From Gemmatimonadota bacterium (lineage in GTDB: Bacteria; Gemmatimonadota; Gemmatimonadetes; Gemmatimonadales; Gemmatimonadaceae), in contig JAQBYI010000012.1 of the NCBI GenBank assembly GCA_027622655.1, positions 1 to 64,000 of the forward strand: DNA of 64,000 nucleotides, in the 5' to 3' direction. The position numbers were made by a program, and so were the translations under genes. The notes under the pieces were generated by a model, which was not told the DNA's origin, did no database searches, and saw only the letters and a list, made by a program, of their open reading frames with translations. Positions within the stretch are counted from its first letter, which is position 1; each line of letters begins with the position of its first letter. This document shows positions 7,980 through 60,629 of the stretch, piece by piece.

Positions 7980-8669
7980 ATTCCCGGCACGCGCGGTGCC
8001 GCAGGCGCCGCAGGCGCCGCAGGCGCCGCGGGCGCCGCGGGCGCCGCAGGGGAGCCTTCTCCTAACCCGCTCGTCATTCGCAGTCTCGAGTTCCTGGGTG
8101 GCATGGCGGAGGCGGGTGGTTGGCGCCCGCCACCAGAACTCCCCGAGATCGCCTTCGCAGGCCGCAGCAACGTCGGCAAGTCTGCGCTGCTGAACCGCCT
8201 GGTCGGCCGGCGCAAGCTCGCCCGAGTGAGCAACACCCCGGGTCGCACCCGCGAAGTCAACTTCTTTCGCGTCAACGAGGCTTTCATCATCGCCGACCTC
8301 CCGGGCTACGGCTACGCCCGCGTATCGAAGGAACGCCGCGAGTCGTGGCGTCCGCTGATTGAGGGGTACCTCGGCGGAAGCGCGATGCTGCGGGGCGTTG
8401 TGCTCCTCCTCGACTCGCGGCGAGAACCGTCGGCCGACGATCTCGCGATGCGCGAATACCTCGGCGACCTTGGCGCGCCGGCGCTTTTCGCGCTCACCAA
8501 GATCGACAAGCTGTCTGCGGCTCAGGTCGCGACGCGCGTTGCCAAGCTTGCGCAGACGCTCGATGTCGGCGAGGATCAGGTTGTGCTGACGAGTGCTGAA
8601 ACGGGCCGCGGGCGCGACGACCTCGCGGCATCGGTTGCGGCTTTACTTGAGGCGCCTCCATGGCGATAG
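7980..8669 (+). CDS. engB: Ribosome biogenesis GTPase EngB (YihA/YsxC), probable ATT start
   Basis: EngB is an essential small GTPase for large-subunit ribosome assembly. The G motifs are GRSNVGKS (G1), DLPGYG (G3), TKIDK (G4) and SAETG (G5). The first ATG in frame is at 8103, but that would delete the segment NPLVIRSLEFLGG, which aligns with the first beta strand of the family. Reading upstream, the only reasonable initiator is ATT at 7980, placed six bases after a perfect AGGAGG and two bases after the clpX stop. This gives 229 residues with an N-terminal (GAA)n tract coded by a 9-bp tandem repeat. The alternative is that the repeat expanded into the gene and the native start was lost or moved, with translation now beginning at 8103 (188 residues). 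Gene identity is sure; the start is not. Confidence 0.85.
   Translation: MPGTRGAAGAAGAAGAAGAAGAAGEPSPNPLVIRSLEFLGGMAEAGGWRPPPELPEIAFAGRSNVGKSALLNRLVGRRKLARVSNTPGRTREVNFFRVNEAFIIADLPGYGYARVSKERRESWRPLIEGYLGGSAMLRGVVLLLDSRREPSADDLAMREYLGDLGAPALFALTKIDKLSAAQVATRVAKLAQTLDVGEDQVVLTSAETGRGRDDLAASVAALLEAPPWR
7998..8051 (+). repeat. Tandem repeat, six 9-bp units at the clpX/engB junction
   Basis: Six 9-base units follow each other: three GCCGCAGGC, two GCCGCGGGC and one GCCGCAGGG. In the engB frame they encode glycine-alanine-alanine triplets. The unit is a multiple of three, so copy-number change would keep the engB frame open. Confidence 0.92.
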
Positions 8670-33173: not shown

Positions 33174-33227
33174 GCCGGCAGCCGCAGAGCCGGCAGCCGC
33201 AGAGCCGGCAGCCGCAGAGCCGGCAGC
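33174..33227. repeat. Tandem repeat of 15-bp units between convergent genes
   Basis: Three perfect copies of GCCGGCAGCCGCAGA and a partial fourth lie in the 98-base gap between the UvrC-like gene (stop 33149) and the phosphoesterase gene (stop 33248). There is no coding role. The gap shows no clear terminator. Confidence 0.93.
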
Positions 33228-48407: not shown

Positions 48408-48530
48408 TAGGCAGTGTCTCCAAAAAAGAACGGCCGAGCTTGCCTGATCAGACCCGCTCTGCCGTCAGTGTTAATCGATAACTTCGCGTGAAGGTGAAGC
48501 GCGATCCAGACGAAGTCAAGCAGCCTCGCA

Positions 48531-48592
48531 CGACCAGCACGACCAGCACGACCAGCACGACCAGCACGACCAGCACGACCAGCACGACCAGA
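48531..48592. repeat. Intergenic 9-bp tandem repeat between guaB and the permease gene
   Basis: Six perfect copies of CGACCAGCA are followed by a partial copy. The array lies in the 247-base gap 48408-48654, downstream of guaB and upstream of the permease start. Nothing else in the gap was recognised: no terminator with a T-run and no clear promoter. A minus-strand frame through the array gives a glycine-arginine-alanine tract and is not a gene. Confidence 0.95.
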
Positions 48593-52942: not shown

Positions 52943-54514
52943 ATGCGTCGCGACGACAAGCGTCCTGTGGTGCTCGTTGTCCTCGACGGCTGGGGCTATC
53001 GCCCCGACCGCGAAGGCAATGCGATCGCGCACGCGCGTGTCCCGACCTGGGACCGGATCTGGGCGCGCGGGACGCGCACGCTGCTCGACGCTTCGGGGCC
53101 CGCCGTGGGGCTCCCTGAAGGCCAGATCGGCAATAGCGAGGTCGGCCATCTCAACCTTGGTGCCGGCCGAGTCGTGATTCAGGATCTGCCGCGCGTGTCG
53201 AAAGCGATTCAGAGCGGAGATTTCTTCCAGAACGAGACGCTGCGTACTGCATGCGCGCACGTTCGCGCTTCCGGAGGAACGCTGCACCTGATGGGCCTCG
53301 TTGGAGACGGTGGAGTGCACGCGCATCAGTCACACGCTATCGCGCTGGTGGATCTCGCGCATCGCGAAGGCGTCGGGCGAGTGGCGATACACGCCATGAT
53401 GGACGGGCGTGACACCATGCCGACATCCGGACTCGGCTACCTCACGGCCCTTGCCGAAGCGACGCACGGGCGGGCGTTGATCGCCAGCGTCGGTGGACGG
53501 TATTTCGGTATGGACCGGGACAATCGCTGGCCGCGCGTCGAACGGTGGTACCGGGCGTGCGTGGACGGCACTGCACCGGCGGCGGCCGACGCTCTGCAGG
53601 TGGTGCGCGACGCGTACGCGCGCGGCGAGACCGATGAGTTCATATCACCGGCGACGATTCATGCCAACGGCGCGCCCGTGGCGCCGATGCGCGACGGCGA
53701 CGCGTTGGTGACGTGGAACTACCGCGCCGACCGGATGCGGCAGATCGTACGGGCCGTCGCGATTGAGGGGTTCGACGGCTTTGTCACACAGCCACGGCCA
53801 CGAGTCCACACGGCTACCATGACGCGCTACGACGCCACGTTCCCCATTCCGGCAGCGTTCGCCCCAACGTCCATGAGCCGGATCGTGGCAGAGGTACTGA
53901 GCGACGCGGGACTCTCGACGTTGCGTACCGCGGAGACCGAGAAGTACGCCCATGTGACATACTTCTTCAACGGCGGGCTCGAGACGCCGTACAGCGGCGA
54001 AGAACGGATGCTAGTGCCCAGCCAGCAAGTGGCGACGTACGACCTGGCGCCCGAAATGAGTGCGCCGGGTATCACGGACGTGCTGTGCAAGGCGATCGAG
54101 TCCGGAGACCACGCATTCACGCTGTGCAACTATGCGAACGGTGACATGGTAGGACATACTGGAAACTTCGCGGCGACCGTGCGCGCATGCGAAATTGTTG
54201 ACGAATGCCTCGCGCGCATCATTTACAGCGCCGAACAAAAAGGAACCCGACTGTTGATCACGGCTGACCATGGAAACTGCGAAATGATGATCGACCCAGC
54301 CACGGGTGGACCGCATACGGCACATACGACGAACGCGGTTCCGTTCGTGCTCGTCGATCCTGCCGGCGCGAGCGGCGGCGCGCTTCGCGGCGGCGCGCTT
54401 CGCGCCGGCGGTGCCCTCCGCGACGTCGGCCCGACGATTCTGGAGCTCCTCGGCGTCGGTCAACCCAGCGAGATGACTGGGCGAACGCTCATGCCATCAC
54501 CGGGAGCCGCGTGA
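52943..54514 (+). CDS. gpmI: 2,3-bisphosphoglycerate-independent phosphoglycerate mutase
   Basis: GpmI interconverts 3- and 2-phosphoglycerate using two manganese ions. The product is 523 residues. The catalytic Ser65 lies in GNSEVGHLNLG, and metal motifs include VLDGWGYR, ITADHGNCE and TAHTTNAVPFVLV. The C-terminus carries an in-frame 15-bp repeat giving GGALR units just before the last conserved helix. The next gene overlaps the stop by four bases (GTGA). It starts a long plus-strand run of genes. Confidence 0.97.
   Translation: MRRDDKRPVVLVVLDGWGYRPDREGNAIAHARVPTWDRIWARGTRTLLDASGPAVGLPEGQIGNSEVGHLNLGAGRVVIQDLPRVSKAIQSGDFFQNETLRTACAHVRASGGTLHLMGLVGDGGVHAHQSHAIALVDLAHREGVGRVAIHAMMDGRDTMPTSGLGYLTALAEATHGRALIASVGGRYFGMDRDNRWPRVERWYRACVDGTAPAAADALQVVRDAYARGETDEFISPATIHANGAPVAPMRDGDALVTWNYRADRMRQIVRAVAIEGFDGFVTQPRPRVHTATMTRYDATFPIPAAFAPTSMSRIVAEVLSDAGLSTLRTAETEKYAHVTYFFNGGLETPYSGEERMLVPSQQVATYDLAPEMSAPGITDVLCKAIESGDHAFTLCNYANGDMVGHTGNFAATVRACEIVDECLARIIYSAEQKGTRLLITADHGNCEMMIDPATGGPHTAHTTNAVPFVLVDPAGASGGALRGGALRAGGALRDVGPTILELLGVGQPSEMTGRTLMPSPGAA
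54374..54403 (+). repeat. In-frame 15-bp tandem repeat near the gpmI end
   Basis: Two perfect copies of GGCGGCGCGCTTCGC are followed by a third diverged copy (with an inserted GCC). They encode GGALR repeats in the C-terminal region of GpmI. The 15-base unit keeps the frame. Confidence 0.85.
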
Positions 54515-55242
54515 TGTCGCGTTTCGTTCGCGTCCAGTTGACCAACGCGGCTACGGCCTTTGCTCTCGCCTCGGTGCTCTCGGTGACGACCGCTCCGCTT
54601 GCCGCACAGGTCGTTGGAAGGGTTCCCGAAGAGGCGGTCCTGAAGGACCTTTTCGATGGCCAGCGATTGGGCGTGTTTGGCGGGTGGCTCACGACGGGGC
54701 TCGATCCGGTGGGAGTACGAGCGCATTCGGGGCCGATCGCGGGAGTTCGGTACACGGTACTGATGGCCAGTCCGCTCTATTTCTCGATGCGACTGTTCGG
54801 CGTAAGGACAGAGCACAACGTGCTGGTGCCGAGTGCGCCGGCTGCAGCACGGCGCGCAGGTACCGCCTCCGGCAACCTGCTCGGCTTTGATAGCGGCTTC
54901 GAACTCGCGCTGACCGGCGAACGAGCCTGGCGCGGTGTGCAGCCGCTTTTGACCGGCGGCGTTGGATTCATCACAGGCGCTTTGAACAGTTTTGATGCAG
55001 GTGGCTATTCGCCCGGCGTAAGCGCCCTCTACTCGTACGGGCTGGCCATGCGGTTTCCGACCGGCCAAAACGGCGAGTTACGCGCGGACGTGGGCTGGCT
55101 GGTTCACCAGATGCGGTATCCATCGACATTTCGGACGGAGTTCTCCGGTGACGGCGCGCCGCTCCGTGCGACCGGCACGCTCACCCCGCTGACTTCGAAC
55201 CGCGCGATGACGCTGGCGTGGACTTGGGGAATATTCCGGTGA
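54511..55242 (+). CDS. Secreted protein, probable small outer-membrane beta-barrel
   Basis: The product is 243 residues from a GTG at 54511 or ATG at 54514. A signal peptide (FALASVLSVTTAPLAAQ) is followed by a series of strands with aromatic residues (LYFSMRLFGVRTEH, GVQPLLTGGVGFITG, GYSPGVSALYSYGLAMRF) and a final strand RAMTLAWTWGIFR ending in Arg. This fits a small beta barrel, but no family was recognised. It overlaps gpmI (GTGA) and has 23 bases to the PTPS gene. The function is unknown. Confidence 0.78.
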   Translation: MMSRFVRVQLTNAATAFALASVLSVTTAPLAAQVVGRVPEEAVLKDLFDGQRLGVFGGWLTTGLDPVGVRAHSGPIAGVRYTVLMASPLYFSMRLFGVRTEHNVLVPSAPAAARRAGTASGNLLGFDSGFELALTGERAWRGVQPLLTGGVGFITGALNSFDAGGYSPGVSALYSYGLAMRFPTGQNGELRADVGWLVHQMRYPSTFRTEFSGDGAPLRATGTLTPLTSNRAMTLAWTWGIFR

Positions 55243-55265: not shown

Positions 55266-55700
55266 GTGCGCGGCGCCACCCTCACACGGCGCGTCAGGTT
55301 CTCTGCGACGCACCGGTACCATCGCCCGGAATGGACGGACGCGCAGAACCGTGCCGCCTTTGGAGCCTGCGCCGCGCCCGAAGCGCACGGTCACGACTAT
55401 GTCTGCGACATCACGGTCGGCGGTGATCTCGACGATTCGACGGGAATGGTGATTGACCTCGGCTTGCTCGATCGCGTACTCGACGAGCAGGTGGTGCGCC
55501 GGCTGAACGGCAAGTTGGTGAACGACGCGATTGATACGTTTGCCACTGGCCGATCAATCCCGACCTGCGAAGCGATGGCAAGGGCGCTCGCCGAGAACAT
55601 TGCGGCGGCGTTGGCCACCGAGGGCGCGCGCGCGCGCGTGGCGAGCGTTCGCGTTGCAGAGGACGATTCACTTTCCGCGACGTGGACGACGGACCTTTGA
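55266..55700 (+). CDS. 6-pyruvoyl-tetrahydropterin synthase/QueD family protein
   Basis: The product is 144 residues from a GTG at 55266. Zinc-ligand histidines are in FSATHRYH and EAHGHDYV. The catalytic cysteine lies in CAAPEAHGHDY, five residues before HGH, the pattern of eukaryotic-type PTPS (C-x5-HGHxY) rather than the C-x3-HGH of E. coli QueD. The ligand-binding Glu is in VRVAEDDSLSATW. It may act in pterin or 7-deazaguanine (queuosine) synthesis. It overlaps mobA by 19 bases, placing a pterin enzyme in a molybdenum-cofactor neighbourhood. Confidence 0.88.
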   Translation: MRGATLTRRVRFSATHRYHRPEWTDAQNRAAFGACAAPEAHGHDYVCDITVGGDLDDSTGMVIDLGLLDRVLDEQVVRRLNGKLVNDAIDTFATGRSIPTCEAMARALAENIAAALATEGARARVASVRVAEDDSLSATWTTDL

Positions 55701-56377
55701 CGGCGCGCCGGCGCTGTGTTGGAGTGATCCTGGCCGGCGGTACGTCGGTGCGAATGGGTGGTGTGCCGAAGGGCCTCGAAGCGGTGGGCGGCATGCGAAT
55801 GATCGACCGCGTGGCCTCAGCGCTCTCTGATTCCACAGATTCGCTGCTTCTCGTCGCCAACGACGCGGCTGCCGGCACGTGGATCCCCGGCATCGACGTG
55901 GTCCGAGACGCCAGACCAGGAATTGGACCCCTCGGAGGAGTGCACGCGGCACTTTCGCTAGCCGAAACGGACATCATCGCGGTTGCATGGGACATGCCGT
56001 TCGTTCCCGGCGGCCTCCTGCGCAATCTGCGCGACGCCGCCGAGCTGCACGACGCCGACGCCGCGCTACCGGTGAGCAGCTCGCCCTGGGGATTCGAACC
56101 GCTCGTGGCCTGGTATTCAGCGCGCGCGCTATCCAGCGTCGTCGCCATGATAGACGCCGGTGAGGCGCGCGTAGGCGCGCTCGGGCAGCATGCCAATCTG
56201 CTCACCGTGGATGTATCGTCTTGGGGTGACCCTGATGAACTGTTCTTCAACGTGAACACAGCCGACGATCTCGCTCATGCGAACGCGTACGCAACCGCGA
56301 ACGCAGCCGCGAACGCAGCCGCGAACGCAGCCGCGAACGCGGCCGCAAGCCGGTCAGCCAACGAGCGAACTCGGTGA
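55682..56377 (+). CDS. mobA: Molybdenum cofactor guanylyltransferase
   Basis: MobA transfers GMP to molybdopterin to form the bis-MGD cofactor. The product is 231 residues. The nucleotide loop is LAGGTSVRMGGVPKGLEAV with the essential Arg and Lys, and metal-binding Asp lies in AWDMPFVPGG. The C-terminus has a long ANAA repeat tail coded by a 12-bp tandem repeat, probably dispensable. It overlaps the PTPS gene by 19 bases and dacB by four bases (GTGA). The pairing with moeA (two genes downstream) supports the Mo-cofactor role. Confidence 0.92.
   Translation: MDDGPLTARRRCVGVILAGGTSVRMGGVPKGLEAVGGMRMIDRVASALSDSTDSLLLVANDAAAGTWIPGIDVVRDARPGIGPLGGVHAALSLAETDIIAVAWDMPFVPGGLLRNLRDAAELHDADAALPVSSSPWGFEPLVAWYSARALSSVVAMIDAGEARVGALGQHANLLTVDVSSWGDPDELFFNVNTADDLAHANAYATANAAANAAANAAANAAASRSANERTR
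56297..56344 (+). repeat. In-frame 12-bp tandem repeat in the mobA tail
   Basis: Three perfect copies of GCGAACGCAGCC and one GCGAACGCGGCC follow a diverged earlier copy. They encode a C-terminal alanine-asparagine tail just before the stop and the overlapping dacB start. The unit is a multiple of three. Confidence 0.95.
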
Positions 56378-57771
56378 GTGACTGCAACGTGCGGGCATAC
56401 TCAGCTGAGGCGCGTTGCCGGCCACTGCACTCGCGACTCCGCACGTCCGTTGCGACCGCGTGCACGCTCCTGGCTGTGGCCGCTTGTGCCGGCGCCAGTG
56501 GCGCGGGAGCGGTATCAACCGCTCCGCTCCCGGCGCTCAGCGCCCGCGACTTCGCGCGATCCGTGGATGCAATGCTCACCGCCCCGAGATTCCGGAACGC
56601 GAACTGGGGCGTGCTCATCGTCGACCCGATTCGGGGCGACACGCTCTATTCCCGCAATGCCGGCAAGCTGTTCATGCCGGCGTCGAACCAGAAGTTGCTC
56701 ACCGGTGCGACCGCGCTCGCTCAGCTCGGCCCCGATTACCGATTCACCACGAGATTTGCGAGCACGGGGTCGCTCCGCGATGGTGTGATTGACGGCGATC
56801 TCGTGGTTCTCGGTACCGGCGATCCGACGTTCAGCGATTCACTCTGGTCCGGCGACCACCGGAACGCGTTTCGCGCGATGGCCGACTCGCTCGCTACACG
56901 CGGGGTGCATGCCATTTCCGGATCGCTGATTCGCGGCGGCGCACCGTTCACGGATGGCGCGTGCGGGTACGGCTGGGAAGCTGACGATCTCAACGAGCCG
57001 TTCGCCGCATGCGTCGAGGAACTGTTCGTCAATGAAGGACTTGTGCGCGTGCGCCGAGACGGCGACTCCGAAGCCACATCATCGGCTGAGGTCGCGATCC
57101 GGAATCCACGCGGCGCCTTTTTTGCCGCATTGCGAGACGCATTTGTCGAACGCGGAATAGTGGTCGCCGGCGGTACGGACAGCACTCGCGTTGCGCGCGA
57201 CTCCGCGCTGGTGCCGCTCTTCACGATGGCATCGCCGCCGCTCGCGACGATCCTGGCGCGAATGTTGAAGCCATCGCAGAACCAAATTGCCGAACTACTG
57301 TTCAAGACGATTGGCCGCGAACGGGGCGGCGCGGGTAGGGCCGACAGCGCACGCCGCGTGGTTGAACGGCAACTGGTTGCTTGGGGGGCCGACTCCGCCG
57401 GATTCGCCGTGCGCGACGGCAGCGGGGTTTCACGCCACGACTATTTGACCCCTGAGACGATCATGCGGGTCCTCGACGCGATGCGGCGTCATCCGTCGTA
57501 TGCGGATTGGCGGGCTGCACTTCCGATAGCCGGCGTAGATGGCACGCTTGCCACACGCATGCGAGGAACGGCGGCCGAGGGAAACGTCCGCGCCAAGACC
57601 GGCACGGTGGACAAGGCCCGCTCGCTGTCGGGCTACGTCACAACTGCCGATGGCAAGACGCTCATGTTCAGTTTTCTGTGCAACAACTTCACGGTCCCGA
57701 ACCGCGAAGTCGAACTCGTGCAGGACGCGATTCTCGTAACGCTCGCGTCTCGCCCGGTGCCGCGACGATGA
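56374..57771 (+). CDS. dacB: D-alanyl-D-alanine carboxypeptidase/endopeptidase (PBP4, S13 family)
   Basis: The product is 465 residues from a GTG at 56374. A signal-like hydrophobic stretch is TACTLLAVAACAGASG, with a cysteine that could be a lipobox-like site (VAACAG). The S13 motifs are SNQK with Ser104 and Lys107 (SxxK), SQN in KPSQNQIAEL (SxN) and KTG in RAKTGTVDKA. The enzyme trims or cuts peptidoglycan peptide bridges. It overlaps mobA (GTGA) upstream and moeA (ATGA) downstream, an odd position for a wall enzyme between two Mo-cofactor genes. Confidence 0.93.
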   Translation: MSDCNVRAYSAEARCRPLHSRLRTSVATACTLLAVAACAGASGAGAVSTAPLPALSARDFARSVDAMLTAPRFRNANWGVLIVDPIRGDTLYSRNAGKLFMPASNQKLLTGATALAQLGPDYRFTTRFASTGSLRDGVIDGDLVVLGTGDPTFSDSLWSGDHRNAFRAMADSLATRGVHAISGSLIRGGAPFTDGACGYGWEADDLNEPFAACVEELFVNEGLVRVRRDGDSEATSSAEVAIRNPRGAFFAALRDAFVERGIVVAGGTDSTRVARDSALVPLFTMASPPLATILARMLKPSQNQIAELLFKTIGRERGGAGRADSARRVVERQLVAWGADSAGFAVRDGSGVSRHDYLTPETIMRVLDAMRRHPSYADWRAALPIAGVDGTLATRMRGTAAEGNVRAKTGTVDKARSLSGYVTTADGKTLMFSFLCNNFTVPNREVELVQDAILVTLASRPVPRR

Positions 57772-59048
57772 CTGAACCAACGGCCGGACCCGGCGCACCG
57801 CCAAGGACCAAGCTCGACGTGGCGACTGCTGTGGCCCGCGTAACGGCCGGCGTGTCGCGTTTGGGAACCGAACAGCTTGCACCGGCAGACGCGCGCGGCC
57901 AGGTGTTGGCCGCGGCGGTGCTCTCGACAGTGGCACTTCCCCCGTGGAACAACTCGGGAATGGACGGCTATGCCGTTCGTGCCGCGGATGTTGCCGAGGT
58001 GCCCACGCGCCTCACGGTTCTGGAAACGATTGCGGCTGGTGCGTTCCCCGCTCACCGCGTGGATGCCGGCCAGGCAACGAGAATCATGACAGGTGCGCCC
58101 ATCCCGGACGGCGCAGACTCGGTCATTCGCGTCGAAGACACAGACGGCGGACGTGATTCAGTCGAAATTCGTGCGAATCGGGACGCGGGCAAGAACGTTC
58201 GCGCGCGCGGCGAAGACATCACCATAGGCGGCGAGGCGCTCCCCGCTGGAGTCACGATCGGCGCTGCACAGCTTGGCGTCCTGGCCGCGATCGGGACACA
58301 GCTCGTCGAGGTATTCCGCCGTCCCCGCGTAGCGATCCTCACGTCGGGCGATGAACTCGTGCCGCCGGAGCGTTTCAGAGAGGCGGCCACGGGTCGCAAG
58401 ATCGTATCCTCGAACAGCGTAACATTGGCTGAACTCGTGAGGGAGAGCGGCGGCGAGCCGATCGACCTCGGTATCGCGGCCGATACCCGCGAGTCGATTC
58501 GCGAACATCTGGCCGAGGCTGCCGGCGCAGACCTGATCATCACGTCCGGTGGTATATCCGTCGGCGAGTTCGACTACATGCGCGAGGTGATTGCCGAACT
58601 GGGCGGATCGCTCGACTTCTGGCGCGTCCGCATGCGCCCAGGTGCGCCAATCGGATTTGGGACGCTGGGCGGTACGCCATGGATCGGCCTCCCCGGCAAT
58701 CCCGTGTCGACCATGGTGACGTTCGAGCTCTTTGCGCGGCCCGCCATCCGCAAGATGCGTGGCCACGACGCACTCTTTCGCTCGACCGTCACCGTAACGC
58801 TCGACGAACCCGTACGCCTCGCCGCCAATCTCACGCATTACCTTCGCGCAGTGGTCACGCGACACGAGGGCGGCCGCCTCACGGCGCGACTCACCGGCCC
58901 ACAAAGCTCCGGCGTCCTGTCGTCCATGGCGCGAGCAAACGTACTTCTCATTGTTCCTCAGGGAGCGATTGAGATGAACGCCGGCGAGATACTCCGAGCC
59001 ATCCCGCTCGGCCCGGACGCCGGATACTCAGCCGTGTTCGGCGCGTGA
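57768..59048 (+). CDS. moeA: Molybdopterin molybdenumtransferase
   Basis: MoeA inserts molybdate into adenylated molybdopterin. From the ATG at 57768 the product is 426 residues. Signatures are PPWNNSGMDGYAVRAAD, RIMTGAPIPDGADSVIRVED, LTSGDELVPP, ITSGGISVGEFDYMREV and LPGNPVSTMVTFELF. The longer frame starting at 57507 lies inside dacB and is rejected. The start overlaps dacB by four bases. The stop (59046-59048) lies in the first unit of an 11-bp tandem repeat that also holds the start of the next gene. Confidence 0.96.
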   Translation: MTEPTAGPGAPPRTKLDVATAVARVTAGVSRLGTEQLAPADARGQVLAAAVLSTVALPPWNNSGMDGYAVRAADVAEVPTRLTVLETIAAGAFPAHRVDAGQATRIMTGAPIPDGADSVIRVEDTDGGRDSVEIRANRDAGKNVRARGEDITIGGEALPAGVTIGAAQLGVLAAIGTQLVEVFRRPRVAILTSGDELVPPERFREAATGRKIVSSNSVTLAELVRESGGEPIDLGIAADTRESIREHLAEAAGADLIITSGGISVGEFDYMREVIAELGGSLDFWRVRMRPGAPIGFGTLGGTPWIGLPGNPVSTMVTFELFARPAIRKMRGHDALFRSTVTVTLDEPVRLAANLTHYLRAVVTRHEGGRLTARLTGPQSSGVLSSMARANVLLIVPQGAIEMNAGEILRAIPLGPDAGYSAVFGA

Positions 59049-59094
59049 TCGGCGCGTGATCGGCGCGTGATCGGCGCGTGATCGGCGCGTGATC
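59040..59094 (+). repeat. Five perfect 11-bp units spanning the moeA stop and the methyltransferase start
   Basis: GGCGCGTGATC is repeated five times without a mismatch. Each unit contains GTGA, i.e. a GTG start overlapping a TGA stop. The first unit supplies the moeA stop (59046-59048) and the last unit the GTG start at 59089. A GTG in unit 2 (59056) is in the same frame but meets a TGA after four codons. The other units are out of frame for either gene. Confidence 0.96.
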
Positions 59095-59802
59095 GGAGAC
59101 GCCGCTCCGGCTGGCGCGTGGGACGCCGCGGCGCTGTCTCCGGACTTGACCGCACTCGACGACCGATTCACGGTTGCGTTCACCGACGTCGAAATGCCCG
59201 GCGGATCGTGCCGCATCATGCACCCGCGAAACGCCGACGACCTCATCAGTGAAGCCGACTACGTCAAGGATGAGCGACTCCCATACTGGGCCGATATCTG
59301 GCCGTCGTCGCTGGCGCTCGCGCGATCGTTTTCATCGCTCTCGGCGCAGCCGGGCCGCGTACTGGAACTTGGCTGCGGACTCGGGCTCGTGACGATCGCC
59401 GCGCTCCGGGCGGGACACGACGTGATGGCAACGGACTACTACCCCGACGCGCTCCTCTTCGCGCGGCGAAACGCGATTGCGGCGGTCGGACGCGCTCCCG
59501 GTACGCGAATGGCGAACTGGCGCCACTGGCCGCCCGACGCGGGCCGATTTGACGTCGTAGTCGCTTCGGACGTACTCTACGAACCAGCGTACGCCGGGCT
59601 GGTTGCCGGTATCATTTCGTCGTCACTTGTGCCGGACGGAGTTGCGTTCGTTGCTGATCCAGGTCGCCTGGCACTGCCGGCGTTTCTGGAAGCATGCGAT
59701 CAACGTGGGCTTGATGTAACGGTGCGGATGCAGGTCCCTCACCACGACGGAGCGATTCACCAGGTGATCACGATTCACGAGATTCGGATTCGCGTTTCAT
59801 GA
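59089..59802 (+). CDS. Class I SAM-dependent methyltransferase (METTL21/family 16-like)
   Basis: The product is 237 residues from a GTG at 59089. The SAM site reads RVLELGCGLGLVTIAALRAG and ATDYYPDALLFARRNA, and the post-I motif has VVVASDVLYEPAYAG, resembling DxxY-type protein methyltransferases (family 16, lysine methylation) or small-molecule enzymes. The target is not known. It follows moeA through the 11-bp repeat and overlaps the next gene by four bases (ATGA), so it is translated as part of this run. Confidence 0.88.
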   Translation: MIGDAAPAGAWDAAALSPDLTALDDRFTVAFTDVEMPGGSCRIMHPRNADDLISEADYVKDERLPYWADIWPSSLALARSFSSLSAQPGRVLELGCGLGLVTIAALRAGHDVMATDYYPDALLFARRNAIAAVGRAPGTRMANWRHWPPDAGRFDVVVASDVLYEPAYAGLVAGIISSSLVPDGVAFVADPGRLALPAFLEACDQRGLDVTVRMQVPHHDGAIHQVITIHEIRIRVS

Positions 59803-60572
59803 TGATCGCCCAGGGAGCGGATCCGAACTTCCTGATGTACGCGGGGTCGGCGGTTTTTCTCGTCGGTCTGGCCTGGTTTGCCATGCGGTGGATGAGCCGC
59901 ACGGTGAAGAAGGACCTCGATCCCTCGAACGCCGGCCGAATGCGCGAGTCCATGGCGCTCAAGGCTGATGTCCTACCCCCGGCGCTCGTGAAGGAGGCGC
60001 TCTCCAAGGGACTCGTCTCGTCCGCGCAGCTCGCCACCATGTCGCCCGTCGAACGGCAGTTCCTCTTCACTCAGCTTCGGTCGAAGTTGACGGGAGCGCC
60101 GACTCCGGCCGTGCCGCCGCCGCTGTCGAACACGCACCTGCCGCTCAAGCCAACCGCGAGCGCCGCGCCGCACAATGCGCCGCACAATGCGCCGCAGCTG
60201 AGAAACACGCAGGCGATCACCGCGATTCCGGGGAAACCGATGTCGCTTCCACCGCTCACGCCTGAGCAGATCGTCGCGCTCGGGCACCCACCGGGACAGG
60301 CTCGGAACCCTGCGGCGCCTCCGGCGAGGCCACGGTCCCCCACCCCGCCCGGCGCCGTCGGTGCAGTCGCCGGACACGATCCGTTCGCCGAGCCCGGACC
60401 ACTTGTTATGTTCTGCCCGTGCTGCGGCACGCAGCTCACGTTGCCGGCGTTTCCGCCGTTCGTGGCGTTTTGCGACCAGTGCGGGGCCAAAACTGCCGTC
60501 CGCACGGAGCAGCAGGGCCGCCTCGTCATCAACACAGCGCCTCCCGGCGTGACGCGGCGCCCGATAGGCTAG
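59799..60572 (+). CDS. Membrane protein with a C-terminal zinc ribbon, unknown function
   Basis: The product is 257 residues. A single membrane segment lies at about 13-33 (LMYAGSAVFLVGLAWFAMRWM). The middle is proline/alanine/asparagine rich with a 12-bp coded repeat (APHN twice). The C-terminus has CPCCGTQL...CDQCG, a four-cysteine zinc ribbon on the cytoplasmic side by topology guess. Residues 50-100 include LPPALVKEALSKGLVSSAQLATMSP, a helical domain. I do not know the family. It is between a methyltransferase and argJ; coordinates overlap the methyltransferase stop. Confidence 0.78.
   Translation: MMIAQGADPNFLMYAGSAVFLVGLAWFAMRWMSRTVKKDLDPSNAGRMRESMALKADVLPPALVKEALSKGLVSSAQLATMSPVERQFLFTQLRSKLTGAPTPAVPPPLSNTHLPLKPTASAAPHNAPHNAPQLRNTQAITAIPGKPMSLPPLTPEQIVALGHPPGQARNPAAPPARPRSPTPPGAVGAVAGHDPFAEPGPLVMFCPCCGTQLTLPAFPPFVAFCDQCGAKTAVRTEQQGRLVINTAPPGVTRRPIG
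60165..60197 (+). repeat. In-frame 12-bp repeat in the zinc-ribbon membrane-protein gene
   Basis: GCGCCGCACAAT occurs twice and is followed by GCGCCGCAG. It encodes alanine-proline-histidine-asparagine repeats in the linker. The unit is a multiple of three. Confidence 0.85.
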
Positions 60573-60599: not shown

Positions 60600-60629
60600 C
60601 CGCGCACAACCGCGCACAACCGCGCAAAC
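60600..60629. repeat. 10-bp tandem repeat upstream of argJ
   Basis: Two perfect units CCGCGCACAA and a third unit CCGCGCAAAC lie in the 87-base gap between the zinc-ribbon protein gene (stop 60572) and argJ (start 60660). No terminator is visible in this gap and no clear promoter. Confidence 0.85.

Follow-up and report, generated by a model that had tools for sequence, protein, structure and literature searches.

Tandem copies of a GTGA stop/start overlap form a chain of four-codon reading frames at an operon junction in Gemmatimonadota

We consider the junction between moeA and a methyltransferase gene in a stretch of 64,000 nt from a Gemmatimonadota bacterium (referred to below as the window), where five copies of an 11-bp unit carry a chain of four-codon open reading frames (mini-ORFs), each joined to the next by a GTGA stop/start overlap. 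We hold with moderate confidence that a GTGA overlap has been tandemly expanded into this chain, and that the methyltransferase would most likely be reached by stepwise re-initiation along it. The array belongs to a recurrent class, seen at operon junctions of Gemmatimonadota and chiefly in Gemmatimonadaceae.

Results

The array occupies positions 59040..59094 of the window (forward strand, as are all genes and reading frames described here) and consists of GGCGCGTGATC repeated perfectly five times, head to tail, as in a minisatellite. The next 11 bases after the fifth unit, GGAGACGCCGC, do not match GGCGCGTGATC. The first unit contains the stop codon (TGA, 59046-59048) of moeA (57768..59048), which encodes a molybdopterin molybdotransferase of 426 aa with the Pfam domains MoeA_N, MoCF_biosynth and MoeA_C. 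The fifth unit contains the GTG start (59089-59091) of a SAM-dependent methyltransferase of 237 aa (59089..59802; Pfam Methyltransf_23/25/16). This is the arrangement that the first-pass annotation had described. When the window is shuffled 100 times by mononucleotides, not one 11-mer occurs in even three perfect tandem copies, and in its own genome the junction array is a single match; its copy number of five is read from a single draft assembly, without reads.

The predicted methyltransferase start in unit 5 is sound. Its GTG is the first start past an in-frame TGA at 59068 (unit 3), which closes the frame upstream, and the N-terminus that it gives has about the same length as in the relatives. 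The later in-frame starts, a TTG 57 nt on and an ATG 105 nt on, both cut into the part that is conserved in the relatives. We see in the sequence no Shine-Dalgarno-like site for an independent initiation of the methyltransferase, and at this junction neither a promoter-like site nor a terminator; a search of Rfam gives no match. RNA folding was rejected as an explanation of the array's function, since five junctions fold no better than their shuffles.

Because 11 equals 2 modulo 3, a frame opened at the GTG of one unit reads GTG-ATC-GGC-GCG-TGA and closes at the TGA contained in the next unit's GTGA. Mini-ORF 1 (59045..59059; GTG ATC GGC GCG TGA, with M-I-G-A as its putative product) starts in the GTGA that bears the moeA stop. 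Mini-ORF 2 (59056..59070) and mini-ORF 3 (59067..59081) would be translated from the same codons, and each shares a GTGA overlap with the one before it. Mini-ORF 4 (59078..59092), again with these codons and the same predicted peptide, ends in a TGA (59090-59092) that overlaps the methyltransferase GTG. From the moeA stop through mini-ORFs 1, 2, 3 and 4 to the methyltransferase, every link is a GTGA overlap. The two genes themselves stand 44 nt apart and do not share a -4 nt overlap, in which the downstream start lies on the upstream stop as RTGA; overlaps of that kind are present in the closest relatives and at each step of the chain. Since a stop and a start are kept in each unit, both proteins are unchanged at any whole number of units.

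This chain changes the effect that is to be expected of the array. Because the TGA of each inner four-codon ORF overlaps the next GTG, coupling may be relayed across the 44 nt rather than broken. The earlier view that a separation of 44 nt means weaker coupling is incomplete, as it overlooked the in-frame chain of four-codon ORFs. A shared mini-peptide was considered and dropped, codons 2-4 being without clear consensus across the chains; the residue found most often ahead of the stop is Pro.

The genes on either side are also joined by short overlaps. A D-Ala-D-Ala carboxypeptidase gene (S13; 56374..57771) shares an ATGA with moeA at 57768, and the methyltransferase shares an ATGA at 59799 with a downstream gene of 257 aa (59799..60572) that has no Pfam match. 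The statement that all neighbouring pairs in this run overlap by GTGA or ATGA holds at 54511, 56374, 57768 and 59799 and fails at 55240/55266, where there is a gap, and at 55682/55698, where the overlap is longer. More short intergenic arrays, perfect or nearly perfect, lie in the window at 48528-48591 (9 bp), 7998-8050 (9 bp), 33174-33227 (15 bp) and 60600-60626 (10 bp). At 56284-56346 a 12-bp array, CGCGAACGCAGC in five copies, encodes an Ala/Asn-rich tail at the C-terminus of a MobA-like gene.

The history of the junction can be read from its relatives. The host genome comprises 3.14 Mb in 115 contigs, and the relatives are Gemmatimonadaceae (phylum Gemmatimonadota), mostly metagenome-assembled. 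The moeA-methyltransferase pair is syntenic, the two genes being neighbours, in about 28 relatives from the same genus and family; within the genus the MoeA identity is at most 77% (the value for G010). A one-copy ATGA, GTGA or TTGA overlap is present in the three closest species (G010, G008 and G003) as well as in most other genera, and the remaining congeners have a longer overlap in which the methyltransferase starts at least 8 nt inside moeA. Neither the array nor the 44-nt offset is found in any of the approximately 28 relatives. With a single overlap in the closest species and in most other genera, the one-copy overlap is most likely the original state, from which the array arose; a single GTGA overlap was most likely duplicated in tandem to five copies in the host lineage. 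The first-pass annotation had proposed just such an origin, and the relatives agree with it. They also lack both of the patterns that it had named as speaking against that origin, namely five units at fixed number in the relatives and a conserved non-overlapping junction.

A second orthologous junction, that of a histidine kinase gene with mtaB, gives a view of the same process between species. In 8 of the 12 congener species compared, the junction is a plain overlap. G013 has an 11-nt relay of GTGAACGCGCG units and its sister species G015 (88% identity) has an 11-nt relay with one GTGAGCGACGC unit, so the copy number at this junction differs between sister species. An unrelated 11-nt relay (ATGACGAAACC ATGAAGAAAGC) is present in G014, and G002 has an 8-nt step. 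As the relays of G013 and G015 are unrelated to that of G014, the expansion at mtaB has occurred more than once, and we infer that 11-nt arrays arose there at least twice from a single overlap.

How unusual such an array is depends on the genome in which it is found. In 1.34 Mb (42%) of the host genome, the portion covered by our survey, there are 146 short tandem arrays per Mb, compared with 86-136 in congeners and 17 in the sample of G030, which belongs to another genus. A perfect 11-bp array is therefore not rare in this host, and it is the placement on a stop/start overlap that counts. The same abundance favours the main rival explanation, in which frequent short duplications spanning an RTGA overlap accumulate as a neutral minisatellite with no role in coupling. 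In a genus full of minisatellites, slippage without function could both make and keep such arrays. The perfect GGCGCGTGATC units, which indicate that the array is young, and the intact termini of both proteins at any copy number are consistent with this explanation as well.

Three arrays of 11-bp units lie on stop/start junctions in the 1.34 Mb: that of the window, one of four ACATGACGCGC units at a galactokinase start (L128) and one of three AGCGCCGTGAC units (L078). Further 11-nt chains in the host genome are found at L087 and L072, and the congeners have junction arrays with 11-bp units at L137, L148, L154, L156 and L157. The moeA junction had been treated as one case; with these other arrays in its genome and genus, it is no longer a single one. 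A search of the 18 genus genomes for RTGA-N7-RTGA-N7-RTGA returns 106 matches, which form 75 distinct arrays. We have examined the gene context of 26 of these 75 period-11 arrays, using gene calls from a simple codon-usage caller made for this analysis, and 10 of the 26 are junction relays, in which one RTGA carries the stop of the upstream gene and an RTGA further along carries the start of the downstream gene. Relay sites include argC-argB, tsaE-tsaB, a site before mtaB and one before a peptidase gene (names from reading the translations). The unit sequences differ between junctions, sharing only RTGA, and some RTGA chains of the genus sit away from junctions.

Other repeats were seen in the course of this survey. 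At L145 (G002:C34; response regulator/histidine kinase), a GTGAGAACAAG-type array of about six units has GTGC in one of them, which makes it a natural broken chain. At L141 (G014:C1:190902-190938), ATGA recurs at 11-nt intervals ahead of a gene; as the neighbour called upstream of that gene lies on the other strand, this is not an obvious coupling site. Dispersed AGTGGGAGNNN arrays, a recurrent 11-bp repeat family with up to 16 copies, are present on many contigs of G012 and G014. The host genome also contains similar-looking tandem repeats of 52-53 bp between genes, at L080 8846-8949 and L095 10111-10259.

The next question is whether relays at junctions exceed what base composition would give. 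We use a sample of 2.14 Mb from five genomes with 1364 same-strand junctions. At 93 of these the upstream gene stops in an RTGA and the next gene starts no more than 90 nt away without a direct overlap, and we shuffle the intervening bases. RTGA-overlapping mini-ORF relays are observed at 34 of the 93 junctions, against 13.2+-3.1 in the shuffles and 19.2+-3.5 when the shuffles set A at 48% after the start. At short gaps (D<=24) there are 20 relays against 6.9-9.9; at short gaps without recognisable tandem repeats there are 17 against 6.1-9.0 (p printed as 0.0000, 1000 shuffles). Longer gaps (D>24) have a marginal excess only, 14 against 6.3-9.3. The same pipeline applied to Sinorhizobium meliloti pSymB (850 kb, with a comparable GC of 62.4%) gives 3 relays against 3.6-4.4, and no period-11 triple is found in these 850 kb. 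An A follows the start in 18 of the 22 short-gap junctions with D = 2 mod 3, compared with 66 of 237 without an RTGA stop (p ~1e-6) and with 9 of 17 RTGA-stop junctions in the other two frames (p = 0.08).

The period of the arrays provides a second comparison. None of 10 period-10 RTGA arrays of the genus is a junction relay, against the 10 of 26 at period 11 (Fisher p=0.035, a preference that rests on small numbers), and against an expectation of about 5-8 for period 10 itself (P = 0.009 to 0.0004). The two periods are nearly equally common outside genes or at gene ends, with about 11 arrays of period 10 and about 14 of period 11; strict junction cases in the genus number one for period 8 and four for period 14. 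Neutral accumulation does not readily account for this, because period 10 is nearly as common and equally protein-neutral, yet makes no junction relays, and because the excess extends to short relays in which no repeat can be recognised. We consider the neutral explanation rather unlikely, although it is the strongest of the alternatives.

Some of the chains need to be read with caution. RTGA occurs twice as often as the reversed motif used as a control, a base rate that also biases the reversed-pattern counts of our genome searches, and diverged triples spaced 11,11 number only 4, where other spacings average 2.1. With this base rate and such a weak excess, part of the diverged RTGA chains is due to chance. 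The divergence of spacers (at least 3 mismatches in 7), found in 40 of 75 RTGA and 4 of 38 AGTR arrays, was rejected as a sign of strong selection. It is confounded by base rates, since with RTGA twice as frequent, chance triples are about 10 times commoner.

Beyond the genus, a four-fold period-11 RTGA chain is present in 78 of 395 Gemmatimonadota genomes, mostly Gemmatimonadaceae. There are about 100 distinct four-fold arrays, counted by eye from the match list, and the chance expectation estimated from the RTGA rate is about 5-9 for the whole set of 395 genomes. Among the matched strings, G237:C62:6351-6453 has ten RTGA at exact 11-nt spacing with all spacers different, far beyond chance. 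Orthologous six-fold RTGA chains at G346:C4:51760-51818, G373:C184:4062-4120 and G358:C263:1628-1686, again seen as matched strings, differ in their spacers and keep every RTGA. In 13 genomes of other phyla, 25 places are listed, and 5 in the control; most of these matches look like chance, and the element is not established outside Gemmatimonadota by these genomes.

Discussion

Combining the anatomy of the junction with the single overlap in its relatives, the recurrence of such arrays and the excess of relays, we propose the following mechanism. A ribosome ending moeA would re-initiate at the first GTG, read four codons, terminate and re-initiate again, so that the methyltransferase would be reached via the usual -4 steps and not by a single 44-nt jump. 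The yield would drop by a roughly constant factor per unit. With such a constant loss, the number of units could determine how much of one product is made relative to the other, and a dependence on copy number as the product of the per-step efficiencies is possible. For the class as a whole, the best supported reading is that a lineage prone to repeats has expanded RTGA overlaps in tandem more than once, and that the expansions are retained preferentially where the period hands the ribosome from unit to unit. A stronger proposal is that chains of four-codon mini-ORFs, with RTGA every 11 nt, are a regular, selected junction element in Gemmatimonadota and above all in Gemmatimonadaceae, serving as an attenuator that slippage can tune, in which the copy number governs the ratio of neighbouring products and leaves the proteins unaltered. 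We put this forward only tentatively, as an idea that may well not hold.

Translational coupling by -4 nt ATGA/GTGA overlaps, through termination and re-initiation, is known (Huber et al. 2019, PMC6728339; 2023, PMC10666635). Every link of the chain is exactly such an overlap (RTGA), and the ancestral junctions are plain RTGA overlaps; the known case has one overlap between two genes, whereas here several stand in series via four-codon ORFs whose coupling is predicted. The effect of plain distance bears on an explanation that goes back to the first-pass annotation, in which a start 44 nt from the stop weakens or ends coupling and the last GTG would be used by direct scanning or independent initiation. 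The efficiency of coupling does fall steeply with distance: a plain 38-nt distance removes 80-100% of it in E. coli, and about 20 nt nearly abolishes it in H. volcanii (PMC10666635). The chain, however, offers an in-frame GTGA step every 11 nt in its inner units, so that a different effect is to be expected, and no Shine-Dalgarno-like or promoter-like site is seen from which an independent initiation could start. We therefore regard uncoupling as improbable. Least probable by far is that the array is not a translational element at all but the binding site of a regulator of the PhoB/PhoP type: such response regulators bind direct repeats of 11-bp period, and some chains lie away from junctions, but the units have only RTGA in common between junctions, each relay begins with the RTGA of the upstream stop and ends with that of the downstream start, and the moeA/methyltransferase junction has no promoter-like site.

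Returning to stepwise re-initiation, we compare the array with other repeats and short ORFs at gene starts. Mycobacterial interspersed repetitive units (MIRUs) sit on gene starts as repeats with a short ORF, which is linked at -4 spacing to the gene that follows (review PMC12548453). The array resembles them in having a repeat unit with a short ORF tied to the flanking ORFs by stop/start overlaps, here four GTGA-linked ORFs. MIRUs vary in copy number, and their units are tens of bases long and belong to one dispersed family, whereas here the unit is 11 bp, specific in sequence to its junction and a copy of the junction's own overlap. MIRUs are the nearest known parallel, and the array itself is not a MIRU. 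Direct repeats of the heptamer TAACTGA in Beggiatoaceae and some cyanobacteria lie upstream of starts, often replacing the ribosome-binding site (PMC4679880). They are likewise short tandem repeats directly upstream of starts and sometimes overlap the upstream stop, but the heptamer is fixed and contains stops, no start codon and no mini-ORF chain, in contrast to GGCGCGTGATC with its period of 11 rather than 7 nt. Short upstream ORFs that bring the ribosome to a coupled gene (discussed in PMC12548453) have the same proposed role of delivering it to the next start; in our case there are several in series, between two operon genes, made by tandem duplication. A literature search for chains of stop/start overlaps, or for repeats at overlaps, has not found this arrangement described in the collection of papers that it covered.

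The junctions collected here, real operon junctions with anything from one to four or more overlaps in a row and including the same junction across species, form a natural series that permits a direct test of how ribosomes move after termination. If the ribosome only steps across overlaps, a chain would keep coupling where an equal plain gap loses it. The arrays also suggest a simple route by which slippage in repeats could adjust the stoichiometry of an operon's products, with both proteins left unchanged.
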